Positions 13,870 to 51,732 of a stretch of 64,000 bases of DNA are shown in pieces (positions within the stretch are counted from its first letter, which is position 1; each line of letters starts with the position of its first letter). The translations under genes were made by a program, and so were the position numbers. The stretch is from Pirellulales bacterium (GTDB lineage: Bacteria > Planctomycetota > Planctomycetia > Pirellulales > JAEUIK01): NCBI GenBank assembly GCA_019745975.1, contig JAIESQ010000013.1:1-64000 (forward strand), in the 5' to 3' direction. Under the pieces are notes generated by a model. The model saw only the letters and a list, made by a program, of their open reading frames with translations. It searched no databases and was not told where the DNA came from.

Positions 13870-14946
13870 AGTCTGCCTGGAACGCCAAGACGATAAAGTT
13901 CTCGGGTGGCGATCCGGGAATCATCGCAACAGACACCTCCGGTCTATTTGTAAGCCGAGAATTCGGCATACAATGGTCCTCCGATTTATGGAAACGGATC
14001 GACACCACGACGCCTGTCGGTCATCCCCGCCACCTGGGCGTTTACCGCTCGCTCAGGACTGGGAATTGTTGCAGCAAGAGTCGCAGAACCGGCAAACGCT
14101 AGGGGGTAATCACCAGTGCGCTTTATTCCCAGGAAGCCGAGCAAAGGGACTTTCGCGGCTTAATGTCCTACCAGGGGCAACAGGTGGCAGTTGATTTGGT
14201 CAACGGTGTATCCAGAATCCCAAAGAGAGGTTTTCTGGTTCGGCGCGGGGAAGTCAACGATCATGACCTGACTTCGATTCTAGTTGCCTTGCAGCCGCGC
14301 CGCAACCTTGGGTCTGTTTCTCGTCTAGGCGATCCAACCGGCGATCCGTCGCAACTCGTTTACCGGTATCCGCGCTGCATTCTGGACGCCTCGAATGGCT
14401 CGAAACCGCTCTACATGACGCTGATTTACAGCGGGCCATCACGGCCTTGGCACTCAACGCCCGAGGCGATTCGCATTGCCATTGTGGCCATGATTCGAAT
14501 GATCTCACCGCGCACGCGACGAACCGGGCACTCACGAACTCCGTATTAATGCGCTTTGCTAGCGACTCCGACGTATCGGTGAAGATGTAGTGCGCTTGTC
14601 CGTATGAATCGGATAGCGACACCGCTCAACTTTGCATTCATCATGACCCAACCAGGCCTCAATTGGTGAAGTTCGCGATTCAGCCTGCCACGCCGAAGTG
14701 GAAGGGTCACGTACGATAGTTGCTGGGTTGAGGGAGCGACTTGGCAACGCCTTCATGCGCACTGCGTTGCTAGCAGTTGCCGACGCTTTGAGATGGTATC
14801 GCCACGGGCGAAACGTTAGACTCTAAAGCACCACTGCTGACCATTGGGCTGGGGAAATTTTCTGTGACTTCGCGAAGTTCATCTTTGTCGTGTGATGAAG
14901 ATCCGCGTCACGTCCCTGGCCCGGCCTGCTACCACAAGGAAGACTC
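13870..14946. other. Gene-poor stretch with broken reading frames
   Basis: No intact gene is supported. Short open stretches, such as 14163-14549 starting MSYQGQQVAVDLVNG, have partly protein-like composition but are interrupted by stops and frame changes and match no family I recognise. The region most likely contains decayed genes next to the integration boundary. Confidence 0.4.
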
Positions 14947-44501: not shown

Positions 44502-45134
44502 ATGACGGATCAGCGCCAGATTGCGGAACAGCCGGGTAATCAAATCAGTACGAAGCGCGGCTTCCCCGTCTACCGCACCAACCCGAGCGTCCCTTCGACG
44601 AACGGAATGCCGACTCGCAACAAGCGGTTTCATGTGCCTGGCGGCAAGGCCTCGATGATCGTCGATAACAGCACCGGCGAAATCAAAGGCATCGGCGGCA
44701 TGGGGTTCTGGTGGGAAGAAGAAGTCGACAGCAGCCGGTTCGTCAAACTGTTCCTCGATGGCATCAAGCAGGCCGCCGGACTGTCGAAGACCGGCATCCA
44801 GGTCTTTGAACTGGTCTATCACCAGATGCGTGCCAATCCTGGCTCCGATGAAATCAAGCTGAATCAGTACGTGGCGAAGGACCACGGCATGAGTGACCGC
44901 ACCTACCAGCGTGGTGTCCGGGAACTGCTCGAAAAGGAATTCCTGTACCGCAGCCCCAGCGATGGGGTCTTCTTCGTCAACATCCGGTTCATGTTCAACG
45001 GCGACCGTCTGGCATTTGTCAAAACGTATCACTTGAAGGGCGCAGCCCGGCAGCAGCAGTTGCCATTAGTCGAAATACCAGCCCTCCCCGCCCCTATTGA
45101 TTTCGAGGCAGAGTCGGAATCAGAAATCATTTGA
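44502..45134 (+). CDS. Plasmid replication-initiator-like protein (winged helix, RepL-like)
   Basis: The 210-residue protein has a central winged-helix region: LSKTGIQVFELVYHQMRAN, MSDRTYQRGVRELLEKEFLY, then a wing ending FFVNIRFMFNGDRLAFVKTYHL, cited by VNIRFMFNGDRLAF. The I-P/R-x-FNGDR ending after a wHTH resembles plasmid RepL-type proteins. With ParA and a ribbon-helix-helix protein next to it, a replication or maintenance role is likely. The ribosome site GGAGGGGG is strong. Its stop overlaps the end of the convergent RHH gene. The RepL link is from pattern only. Confidence 0.6.
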   Translation: MTDQRQIAEQPGNQISTKRGFPVYRTNPSVPSTNGMPTRNKRFHVPGGKASMIVDNSTGEIKGIGGMGFWWEEEVDSSRFVKLFLDGIKQAAGLSKTGIQVFELVYHQMRANPGSDEIKLNQYVAKDHGMSDRTYQRGVRELLEKEFLYRSPSDGVFFVNIRFMFNGDRLAFVKTYHLKGAARQQQLPLVEIPALPAPIDFEAESESEII

Positions 45135-45435
45135 GGTATCCGTTCGACTTAAGCCAGGGTTCTACGGCTTCTTCGAGGATGTCTTGCAAAGAATTCGGCT
45201 CAACGCCTTCCAATTGGCGTTCGAGCGATGCGCGTTTGAGGGCCTTGGAAAAATCTTCTCGCATGCGTGTGCCGATTGGAACGCGGTTGATGCGTGGCGT
45301 CGTGGGCGTAGCTGTCAAAGCGGGTGCAGTAGCCGGTGCTTTGTCTTGATAGACGAAGCCCTTCTCGATGCTTTTGTCGATCGGCGGCGGTGTGGTTTTC
45401 AATCCTTCGGTTAAGCTGCGACGTTGCTCAGCCAT
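45127..45435 (-). CDS. Ribbon-helix-helix partition protein (ParG-like)
   Basis: The 102-residue protein has a disordered, Pro/Thr-rich N-terminal half and a C-terminal ribbon-helix-helix: RVPIGTRMREDFSKALKRAS followed by SLQDILEEAVEPWL. It follows parA by 7 nt on the same strand. A flexible N-terminus plus RHH is the plan of ParG/omega-type centromere-binding proteins, in which the N-terminus stimulates the ParA ATPase. The octad array upstream of parA is its natural candidate binding site. Confidence 0.7.
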   Translation of the reverse strand: MAEQRRSLTEGLKTTPPPIDKSIEKGFVYQDKAPATAPALTATPTTPRINRVPIGTRMREDFSKALKRASLERQLEGVEPNSLQDILEEAVEPWLKSNGYLK

Positions 45436-45442
45436 AATCCCT

Positions 45443-46120
45443 CTATGTGTTCGCGGCGCGGCGTGAAACAGCGAGCCGTTTCTTGACGACATCCGGCAGT
45501 ATCTCGCGGAACAGGTCGTCAACTTCGTGGGCGGCGTCCTTCGCCCGCGACCCCATCTGCCAAACGACAGATCCCTGCCCTGGCGCATCCGCGTAAATCT
45601 GCCGCAGAATCATGGCCTTAGCTGCCAGCGGCAAATTCAGTGCGGTGGCGGCGTCTTTCATGTCTTGGGTCAGTCGGTAGTGCTGCCCGACCATGCTCAA
45701 GACGATCACGGCTTTGGGTATCCCTCCCCTGATGTCTTGCGCCTGGCGCAACACTTCGGTTGCCTTGGCCAGTGCCCGTATTTCAAGCATGCTCGCTTTG
45801 CATGGCACAATCGCCAAGTCGGCGCGGAGCAATAGCGCACGGCTGGTCTCGGTCTGGCTGCCCGGTCCATCGGCCACGACGAAGTCGGCATCCTGCCCAA
45901 GGCTGGGCAATTCGTTCAGGATCGTGTCCGGGTTGTCGAGGCGGACGGCCTTAATGGCAGGCACAGCCTCGCGTATCCACTCGGAGCTTGATTGCTGGGT
46001 GTCGCAGTCGGCCAGTGTGACGCGGCAGCCCTGCTCGTGGAGCCAGGCCGCCAGGTGAACTGCGAGCGTCGACTTGCCGACCCCGCCCTTGGAATTCGCA
46101 ACGGCAATAATCATGGGCAA
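45443..46120 (-). CDS. parA: ParA-family partition ATPase
   Basis: The 225-residue protein begins with the deviant Walker A motif NSKGGVGKSTLA, contains DCDTQQSSSEW and VVADGPG (Walker A'/B region) and has the short length of type Ib ParA/ParF proteins, which lack the N-terminal HTH. These ATPases bind DNA as ATP-dimers and move plasmid copies by interplay with a centromere protein. The gene is followed by the RHH gene and preceded by an 8-bp-periodic repeat array reaching the start codon. This arrangement is typical of low-copy plasmid partition cassettes. Confidence 0.9.
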   Translation of the reverse strand: MPMIIAVANSKGGVGKSTLAVHLAAWLHEQGCRVTLADCDTQQSSSEWIREAVPAIKAVRLDNPDTILNELPSLGQDADFVVADGPGSQTETSRALLLRADLAIVPCKASMLEIRALAKATEVLRQAQDIRGGIPKAVIVLSMVGQHYRLTQDMKDAATALNLPLAAKAMILRQIYADAPGQGSVVWQMGSRAKDAAHEVDDLFREILPDVVKKRLAVSRRAANT

Positions 46121-46131
46121 GCCATAGCACG

Positions 46132-46387
46132 ATTACATGCAAACATGCAAGCAGGAAATCAATCTTGCAGTCCGACAAGCTTTCAAGCATGACGGCCAGC
46201 ATGTTTTCATTCTTGCATGCTAACAGTCTTACAACGTGACGTTCTGACAATCTACCAAGCATGATTGCTTGCAATCTTTCATGATTTCATTCTGTCTTGA
46301 TTGCCAGTCAGATTTCTTTCTTGCTTTCACGTCAGCAAGCCAGAAAGCCATCAGTCTTTCAAGCTGGCAGGATTTCTTTCATGCATT
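46132..46387. repeat. Array of 32 phased degenerate 8-bp repeats (candidate centromere)
   Basis: Cutting the sequence into octamers from 46132 gives 32 units with a plus-strand consensus CTTNCANN. Position 5 is C in 28 of 32 units, position 6 is A in 24 and position 1 is C in 23. Examples are cttgcagt (46164), ctttcaag (46180), cttgcatg (46212), cttgcaat (46268) and ctttcatg (46276). The phase is unbroken for 256 bp and runs up to the parA start region. It encodes no credible protein. The likely role is a parS-type centromere and operator for the RHH protein. Confidence 0.8.
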
Positions 46388-46452
46388 TTCACGGTGAAAA
46401 AGACACCTATGCACTGCATAGGGAAGATGTCTGCACTCGATTTGGCTTTTTT

Positions 46453-49092: not shown

Positions 49093-51732
49093 ATGTTGCG
49101 CATCATCCAGAGCACCAGTTCAGCCCAAGCGAAGAGCTACTACTCGACGGCTGACTATTACCTGGCCAACGAACAGGAACTAGCCGGCCAATGGCGCGGT
49201 GAGGGCGCCCGCCTGCTTGGCCTTGATGGCAAGGTCCACCAAGCCGAATGGGAATCGCTGTGCGACAACCGCAATCCGCAAACCGGTGAACGGATCACCT
49301 CAAGGCAACGCGCGGATCGGACGATCGGCTACGATTTCAACTTCCATGTCCCCAAGAGTGTGTCGCTGCTCTATGTGGCGACGCGCGACGAACGGCTCCT
49401 GGAGGCGTTTCGGGAATCGGTCGATGCAACGATGCAGGACATCGAGGCGGAGACCCAAGCCCGCGTCCGCAAGAGCGGTAAGAACGAGAACCGCCAGACG
49501 GGGAACCTGGCCTGGGGCGAGTTTATCCATTTCACATCGCGGCCGGTCGACGGCGTGCCTGATCCGCATTTGCACGCGCACTGCTTTGTCCACAACGTGA
49601 CGTTTGATGCCCAGGAGGAGAAATGGAAGGCGGGCCAATTCCAGGACCTAAAGCGTGATGCACCGTATTTCGAGGCGTTGTTCCATTCAAGGCTCGCCCA
49701 CAAGCTCACGGACCTGGGTCTTCCGGTCGAGCGGACGGCCAAAGGCTGGGAACTCGCCGGTATCGACAAGGGATTCGTCCGCAAGTTCTCCCGGCGGACG
49801 AAACTGATTGAAGACAAGGCCCGAGAAATGGGCATCGACAGCGCCCAGGCCAAGGACGGGCTGGGGGCCAAGACGCGCGAACACAAGCAGAAGGATCTGT
49901 CATTCGCCGAGCTGCAACAAAGCTGGAATGACCGCATGTCACAACCGGAGCGCAATGCCCTGGCGGCGCTGGCCAAGCGGATCGGCGGTCGGCCGCAACC
50001 GGCGGACGGCGATGCGGCCAGGCGATCGGTCGAGTATGCGATGGACCATGAGTTTGAGCGCAAGTCGGTTGTTCCCGAACGGATGCTGCTGGCCCGGGCG
50101 CTGAAGCACTCGGTCGGCAAGGCCACGGTGGACCAGGTCCGGCGTGACGCGAACAAGGCGGACTTGATTGTCGCCACCCGCAACGGGCGGCGCATGGTCA
50201 CGTCGCGGCGCGTGCTCGCCGAAGAAAAGCGGCTCGTCGATTTCGCCCGGAAAGGGCGGGGAACGTGCCGGCCCTTTGCACGCAAGCTCGATAGCTACCG
50301 CCGCGACTTCCTCAACAATGACCAGAAGCGCGCAGTCAAGCACATCGTTGAGTCGCGGGATCGGGTGATTCTGTTGCGCGGCAAGGCCGGCGTCGGCAAA
50401 ACGACACTGCTGCAAGAGGCCAAGGACGTCATTGAACATTCCGGCACGAAAGTATTCGCGTTTGCCCCCTCGGCGGAGGCCAGCCGTGGCGTTTTGCGCA
50501 CGGATGGATTTGCCGACGCCGATACGGTGGCGATGTTGCTGAAGGATGAACGCAAGCAGCGCCAGGCGGCGGGCAACCTGATTCTGATCGACGAAGCGGG
50601 GCAGGTGGGCAGCAGGACCATGGCCGAGGTGTTCTCCTTGGCGGAGCGGATCAACGCTCGTGTCTTGCTGTCGGGCGATCGTTACCAGCATGCCAGCGTC
50701 GAACGCGGGGCGGCGTTGCGGCTCTTGGAAGAGGAGGCGGGGATTGTTCCCGCCGAGGTGAAAGAGATTCAGCGGCAATCGGGCAAATACAAATTGGCCG
50801 TGAAGGCGATCAGCGACGGCCATGTCGCTGAAGGATTCAAGCGGCTCGACGAACTGGGCTGGATTGTCGAGGCGCCGGGGCTTGACCGTTACCAGCGGAT
50901 TGCAGCGGACTATGTCGAGGCGGTGGCGGCGGGCAAGACGACGCTGGTGATTGCGCCGACGCACGCCGAAGGGGACCGACTGACGGCGGCGATCCGCAAC
51001 CGGCTGCGCGACGAGGGGGAGCTTGGCAAGAACGAGCAGACCTTTCGCGTCCTGCAGAACGCCAACCTCACGGAAGCGGAGCGGGGGGACGAGACCAGCT
51101 ACATTCCAGGGCACGACGTGCTGGTTTTCCACCAGAACGCCAAGGGGTTTACACGCGGGCAGCGGGTCGAGGTATCGCCTGGCAAGTCGCTGCCGCTGGA
51201 TCAAAAATCCCGCTTCCAGGTCTTCCACACGGGTGAATTGTCCCTGGCCGCCGGGGACCAGATCCGGATTACCCGCAACGGGTTTACGGCCGACGGCAAG
51301 CACCGTCTCGATAATGGCGCCTTATATAAGGTCAAAGCCTTTGACGCTGCGGGCAACATCGTGTTGGCCAATGGCTGGGCGGTGGCCAAGGATTACGGGT
51401 TTCTCGACTATGGGCATGTCGTCACCTCCTACGCCAGCCAGGGCCGGACCGTGCAGCGCGTGTTTGTGGCGCAGGGACACGAGTCGATGCCGGCGTCGTC
51501 CCTGGAGCAGTTTTATGTCAGCGCCTCGCGTGGAAAAGAACGGGTCACGATCTACACCGGCAACAAGCGGGAGTTACTGGAAGCTGTCAGTAAATCCGAC
51601 GAGCGGATCACGGCGATGGAGTTGGTAGGCGGCAATGGGCTGCCACCCTTGCCGCCTGAGCCATTGCGCGGGCGCGGCGACTTAGCTGTTTCGGCTGGTC
51701 GCGAATTGCAGGAGTTGGAATATGAGCGGTAG
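49093..51732 (+). CDS. MobF-family relaxase/helicase (TraI/TrwC type)
   Basis: The 879-residue protein nicks and unwinds plasmid DNA for conjugative transfer. The relaxase part (residues 1-300) has two tyrosine pairs, Tyr16/Tyr17 and Tyr22/Tyr23 (SYYSTADYY), and the three-His metal site His159/His161/His163 (PHLHAHCF). The helicase part has Walker A GKAGVGKTT (430-438), Walker B LIDEAG (Asp500/Glu501) and a late SF1 motif VTSYASQGRTVQRVFV. Length is near that of TrwC. No type IV secretion genes are present, so the element is probably mobilisable, or its transfer genes lie outside this window. Confidence 0.92.
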   Translation: MLRIIQSTSSAQAKSYYSTADYYLANEQELAGQWRGEGARLLGLDGKVHQAEWESLCDNRNPQTGERITSRQRADRTIGYDFNFHVPKSVSLLYVATRDERLLEAFRESVDATMQDIEAETQARVRKSGKNENRQTGNLAWGEFIHFTSRPVDGVPDPHLHAHCFVHNVTFDAQEEKWKAGQFQDLKRDAPYFEALFHSRLAHKLTDLGLPVERTAKGWELAGIDKGFVRKFSRRTKLIEDKAREMGIDSAQAKDGLGAKTREHKQKDLSFAELQQSWNDRMSQPERNALAALAKRIGGRPQPADGDAARRSVEYAMDHEFERKSVVPERMLLARALKHSVGKATVDQVRRDANKADLIVATRNGRRMVTSRRVLAEEKRLVDFARKGRGTCRPFARKLDSYRRDFLNNDQKRAVKHIVESRDRVILLRGKAGVGKTTLLQEAKDVIEHSGTKVFAFAPSAEASRGVLRTDGFADADTVAMLLKDERKQRQAAGNLILIDEAGQVGSRTMAEVFSLAERINARVLLSGDRYQHASVERGAALRLLEEEAGIVPAEVKEIQRQSGKYKLAVKAISDGHVAEGFKRLDELGWIVEAPGLDRYQRIAADYVEAVAAGKTTLVIAPTHAEGDRLTAAIRNRLRDEGELGKNEQTFRVLQNANLTEAERGDETSYIPGHDVLVFHQNAKGFTRGQRVEVSPGKSLPLDQKSRFQVFHTGELSLAAGDQIRITRNGFTADGKHRLDNGALYKVKAFDAAGNIVLANGWAVAKDYGFLDYGHVVTSYASQGRTVQRVFVAQGHESMPASSLEQFYVSASRGKERVTIYTGNKRELLEAVSKSDERITAMELVGGNGLPPLPPEPLRGRGDLAVSAGRELQELEYER

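Follow-up and report, generated by a model that had tools for sequence, protein, structure and literature searches.

A long lattice of palindromic 4-bp units upstream of a ParF-type parA gene is very probably a plasmid centromere of undescribed architecture

Ribbon-helix-helix (RHH) ParB proteins do not spread, and it is an open question how partition systems function that can load only a limited amount of ParB (PMC9499535). In the window, i.e. the whole 64,000-nt stretch of planctomycete DNA analysed here, a parA gene is preceded by a long array of short, degenerate units, which raises the question of what the repeated unit is, which protein reads it and to what end. The literature searched, which was largely open-access, yielded no description of such a lattice. 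We conclude that the array is very probably a plasmid centromere of undescribed architecture, judging from its sequence and from the comparison of related loci.

The original prediction divided the region from position 46132 into 32 octamers, with C at position 5 in 28, A at position 6 in 24 and C at position 1 in 23 of them, and these counts are exact. Identity at lag 8 is 0.492, compared with 0.257 ± 0.030 (maximum 0.347) in 2000 dinucleotide-preserving shuffles, and is the highest among all 256-bp stretches of the window. Lags 4, 12, 20 and 28 are likewise raised (0.38–0.40), and of the 179 bits that an 8-column model captures, 147 are accounted for by one with only 4 columns, indicating that the basic period is 4 bp. 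The array is a 4-bp lattice on which an 8-bp modulation is superimposed; the 8-bp unit proposed originally, with the consensus CTTNCANN, therefore gives way to a strand-symmetric C-H-D-G lattice that is modulated at 8 bp. Period 7 gives no signal in the array (6.2 bits vs 13.7 in shuffles).

The limits of the array were set by a scan matrix built from other loci, excluding the window and the three relatives closest to it. Exactly 46124–46387 comes out as the top-scoring segment of the window, with 110 bits; the runner-up segment reaches 16 bits, and 200 shuffled windows reach at most 25 bits. The predicted continuity of phase holds within these limits, since one unbroken phase passes through all 66 tetramers, and the array does reach the parA promoter and, as had been proposed, the parA start (Table 1). 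Tandem Repeats Finder reports only two exact copies in the array (46135–46150), because the array is too degenerate, and a plasmid collection gave no useful match at the DNA level.

Table 1. Positions of the array and of the neighbouring features in the window.
Feature	Position	Strand	Remarks
RepL-like replication protein gene	44502..45134	+	convergent with parA and the RHH-like gene; not conserved beside arrays
Gene of the 102-aa ParB-like protein, RHH-like; candidate centromere-binding protein	45127..45435	-	from sequence pattern and AlphaFold
parA, small Walker-box ATPase, ParF type	45443..46114	-	start ATG 46112-46114
Candidate parA promoter	46121..46150	-	TTGCAT 46145-46150, TGCTAT 46124-46129; conserved pattern
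Candidate centromere and parA operator array	46124..46387	.	66 in-phase tetramers, 264 bp
Double-hairpin element at the distal array border	46387..46433	-	47 nt; CAGACATCTTCCC, 7-bp stem, then TTTCACCGTGAAA
TrwC/MobF relaxase-helicase gene	49093..51732	+	

Most units of the array follow a loose, palindromic rule, C-[ACT]-[AGT]-G (C, not G, not C, G). On the plus strand of the window array, C occupies tetramer position 1 in 52 and G occupies position 4 in 34 of the 66 units, and the two exclusions are broken by only one G at position 2 and two C at position 3. The matrix pooled over the family differs from its reverse complement by no more than a few per cent: the frequencies are C.66/A.19/T.10/G.05 at position 1, A.29/C.38/T.29/G.04 at position 2, A.30/G.32/T.34/C.04 at position 3 and G.70/T.17/A.10/C.04 at position 4, so that position 2 almost never holds G and position 3 almost never holds C. 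Within the tetramer, positions 2 and 3 share 0.15 bits of mutual information; the same positions of neighbouring tetramers (4-bp offsets) share at most about 0.02 bits. The information is therefore confined to the single tetramer, and the array is not a decayed simple repeat. CTAG is depleted among the array tetramers (13 vs 168 expected); this depletion was rejected as an array-specific feature because it is partly genome-wide, the flanks holding 0.18 of the expected number.

The arrangement recurs across planctomycetes, as shown by a comparison of parA upstream regions, a check suggested with the original prediction. ParA homologues were gathered from named genomes, from 398 genomes of the class and from further stretches, with duplicates removed, and an upstream array was called strong above 40 bits of period-4 signal; the signal in parA coding regions never exceeds 27 bits. 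Strong arrays precede parA at 70 of the 77 loci whose ParA is at least 60% identical (seven close relatives are without one), at 13 of 19 loci with 38–60% identity and at none of the 58 loci below 38%. The 68 strong arrays are 140–628 bp long (median 254). An RHH-like gene follows parA at 92 of 95 family loci and lies beside all strong arrays except one (67/68). The reading of the array as an uncharacterised centromere class in planctomycetes appears a good one, given this recurrence beside a ParF-like parA and an RHH-like gene.

The association is also visible when the search begins with the tetramers. In the 7-Mb genome to which the window belongs, a pattern of nine consecutive degenerate tetramers matches only the window array and the array upstream of another parA copy (contig C186), and the reversed pattern gives zero matches. 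A ten-tetramer pattern and the parA family co-occur among the 398 genomes (Fisher p = 1.9e-15). The pattern-only genomes examined hold mostly simple repeats or short isolated runs, and no parA lies near the matches in the loci examined from genomes without the parA family. The genome of the window has at least five type Ib-like parA loci (contigs C203, C108, C186, C198 and C109), with 4-bp lattices in C203, C108 and C186, an 8-bp array in C109 and no clear array in C198.

The ParA protein is of the small type found in type Ib systems (about 200–230 aa). It has about 223–225 residues, a Walker box of the deviant form KGGVGKST as its only such domain and no N-terminal HTH, and it matches ParA/CbiA/MipZ in Pfam; its nearest solved relative is ParF of TP228 (PDB chain 4dzz, 4.6e-13). 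The ATG start is conserved in the family, and an alternative start of the reading frame is TTG at 46118–46120. The candidate promoter lies at the array's proximal end and keeps the phase of the lattice, and its pattern GCTTGCCAG...GTGCTA is conserved among relatives. An iterated site upstream of parA that overlaps the conserved promoter pattern, as type Ib systems have, is thus present.

The small downstream partner that is characteristic of type Ib begins 7 bp after parA. The prediction of an RHH gene at this place stands as to the small gene itself, while the RHH-like assignment comes from the sequence pattern and an AlphaFold monomer. The 102-aa protein has an N-terminal EQRRSLTEGL tail (ERRSLxxGL type) and a C-terminal strand-helix-helix pattern. 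The AlphaFold monomer contains two helices at high pLDDT and no modelled strand, the Pfam RHH matches are sub-threshold, and the only match in a fold search with the model is MetJ at a non-significant E of 9.7. An N-terminal motif R[RK]x[LIM]xx[GA] is present in 90 of 92 partner proteins of the family, and tblastn of the protein against the plasmid collection gave no match. On sequence and model, the protein is regarded as RHH-like and as a candidate centromere binder.

A link between the RHH strand and the letters of the lattice was also considered. Residue 4 of the strand is S, T or G in the pattern xVPx[ST]TR; proteins with Ser go with A at tetramer position 1 and proteins with Thr go with more T (raw association p = 2.8e-7; 26 of 29 matched pairs). 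As there are just three supported independent switches on the ParA tree, we keep this only as a lead, and in a partial Mantel comparison the strand relates to the lattice no better than the helices do (r = 0.125). One family member (L113, genome G257) has a deviating, GAC/GTC-rich lattice with a weaker fit, and its RHH strand carries VGAR in place of xSTR/xTTR.

Structure beyond the lattice was tested by shuffling the tetramers within each array. At 8 bp, z averages 1.4, compared with -0.1 at 12 bp and 0.0 at 20 bp. The 8-bp modulation exceeds z = 3 in 14 of 79 arrays, about one in six, and reaches 6.3 in the window array; in most arrays it is weak or absent, and even and odd tetramers are equal. 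Two relatives from one genome (L116 and L124, G042) alternate strong CATG-like tetramers with weak ones that have lost C1 and G4 but still keep G out of position 2 and C out of position 3; this looks like a transition from the 4-bp lattice to an 8-bp box-plus-spacer arrangement.

These results bear on the best-surviving alternative, an array of the ParG/parH kind that strictly repeats a box and a spacer every 8 bp and shows a 4-bp signal only incidentally. It would explain why lag 8 exceeds lag 4 in the window array, the significant modulation there, and the alternation of strong and weak tetramers in L116 and L124. However, the equality of even and odd tetramers in most arrays and the bits taken by the 4-column model speak for a genuine 4-bp period, both tetramers of each 8 bp obey the rule where parH would have an unconstrained 4-bp spacer, and even the weak tetramers of L116 keep the two exclusions. 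ParF-like loci outside the family, by contrast, have an 8-bp signal without a 4-bp signal (L037, 41 vs 2 bits). We therefore regard a strict 8-bp array as unlikely.

With the 4-bp lattice as the preferred structure, the array is very probably the centromere (the equivalent of parS/parH) of a plasmid partition system of type Ib (ParA/RHH), and probably serves as its operator as well. We infer RHH binding, the packing distance, the repression of parA and partition itself, in the following manner. A two-fold RHH dimer would read the palindromic tetramer mainly through contacts with C1 and G4. Dimers would pack cooperatively side by side every 8 bp, a distance taken from known RHH proteins because the 8-bp modulation is weak or absent in most arrays, and the array would display roughly 30 of them. 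On the simplest reading, the dimers lie 8 bp apart with a strong tetramer under the dyad, and the two registers that a 4-bp lattice offers would be equally good in most arrays. By analogy with TP228 and pSM19035 (PMC5393062, PMC9499535, PMC2262945), the cooperatively bound protein would repress parA through the overlapped promoter, and its Arg-rich N-terminal tails would stimulate ATP hydrolysis by ParA on the nucleoid, so that the plasmid moves. ParG of TP228 works via an N-terminal Arg tail together with its RHH domain (PMC5393062).

A bolder version of this scheme is that the centromere is register-free. Since each tetramer is palindromic and a new one begins every 4 bp, any tetramer could serve as a loading site for RHH dimers, which could then pack in, or slide between, the two equivalent registers. 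We put this forward tentatively, as a possibility that is more doubtful than the centromere itself. If it is true, a ParB that does not spread could coat several hundred bp without sequence-specified positions, a way of loading that neither heptad (omega) nor box-plus-spacer (ParG) centromeres are known to use.

The RHH-like protein might instead regulate parA at the array and find its centromere elsewhere. Sites bound by RHH-ParB proteins are known to act as operators too (PMC9499535), and the array overlaps the conserved parA promoter pattern. Nevertheless, the lengths of the strong arrays are far beyond the needs of repression, and four loci (L094, L096, L098 and L150) keep a strong array although about 310–430 bp of other DNA separates it from the parA start. 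The conserved ParA-type N-terminal tail also points to partition, and an array serving as operator only is quite improbable.

Iterons of a replication origin would be phased repeats as well, and the RepL-like gene that would encode their reader lies 1 kb away. A RepL-like homologue is, however, found at just 13 of 91 family loci (11 of the 65 with strong arrays), where the RHH-like gene is instead the nearly constant neighbour, which makes this explanation very unlikely. Together with the TrwC-type relaxase gene, the RepL-like gene indicates that the region is a mobile-element backbone.

Selection on the array was assessed only in high-identity pairs, since the lattice forces gaps in multiples of 4 between unrelated arrays. 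In eight close pairs, the phase is kept and small indels are absent; the sole length difference is 48 bp, between the window array and those of two relatives (L090 and L118). Substitution rates in these pairs are 0.084 at position 4, 0.123 at position 1, 0.152 at position 3 and 0.168 at position 2, which suggests that the lattice is under selective constraint. That the array is a tetranucleotide microsatellite in neutral decay is hardly credible: period 4 is common among microsatellites and simple tetramer repeats are present in these genomes, but neighbouring tetramers here have no residual similarity, the exclusion rules are strand-symmetric, the phase is maintained without small indels, substitutions are fewer at the constrained positions and the place upstream of one gene family is fixed.

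The double hairpin at the distal border has the general form CAGRCRTCTYCCC, a 7-bp stem and TTTCACCGTGAAA. It stands beside 46 of the 68 strong arrays, occurs in 39 of 298 genomes of the class and is likewise found upstream of unrelated 8-bp arrays. The two stems pair in 92% of cells, and double changes number 38 compared with 12 in shuffles, i.e. the stems covary; no family was found for it in Rfam. Copies elsewhere lie close to the starts of TrwC-type relaxase genes (L223 and L225) and near an ArdC antirestriction gene (L222). Our best guess is a conjugation-related single-strand element, either oriT or a leading-region element.

A 4-bp lattice that is long and unbroken and follows only a loose rule offers a concrete candidate answer to the question of RHH-ParB loading. 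About 68 strong natural arrays, which range from strict 4-bp to 8-bp-alternating and each have their own RHH protein, make the code of RHH-DNA recognition testable. They would also supply candidate centromeres and partition modules for plasmids of planctomycetes, as well as a simple sequence signature with which to find such replicons.

One comparison lies within the genome itself. The unrelated par locus on contig C109 (L005/L197, G000, upstream of the parA at 13905) has in common with the window a ParA, an RHH gene, a phased upstream array and the border hairpin element. It differs in that its array is strictly 8-bp, WCGW-N4, with CG fixed in 20 of 21 octamers and the signal dominated by 8 bp (84 vs 28 bits), and its ParA is only 31% identical. 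In three relatives of this locus (L199, L200 and L205), the 8-bp arrays are built on different boxes.

Among RHH proteins of other function, MetJ is a chromosomal metabolic repressor with 2–5 boxes and no ParA partner. Its dimers sit on adjacent 8-bp met boxes with two-fold symmetry, resembling the packing proposed here. The parH site of TP228 is described as having tetramer boxes separated by 4-bp spacers. The present array differs from it in sequence and by its length, its palindromic unit and the adherence of every tetramer to the rule. The ParFGH system of TP228, with relatives such as that on pMET1, nonetheless shares the small Walker-box ParA, of which ParF is the best solved relative, a partner of RHH type, RHH-like in the window, that has an N-terminal Arg tail (PMC5393062), and a repeat-bearing site upstream of parA that overlaps the promoter (PMC2262945, PMC5389482); on pMET1 this site has eight imperfect direct repeats (PMC2262945). 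The delta/omega/parS system of pSM19035 likewise has an RHH ParB that binds a short unit with low affinity and reads it cooperatively where such units follow one another in phase, in an array overlapping promoters (PMC9499535). Its units are non-palindromic 7-bp heptads (WATCACW), 7–10 per site at six sites per plasmid, whereas the array described here is without period-7 signal and is a single palindromic 4-bp lattice equivalent to about 33 octamers.
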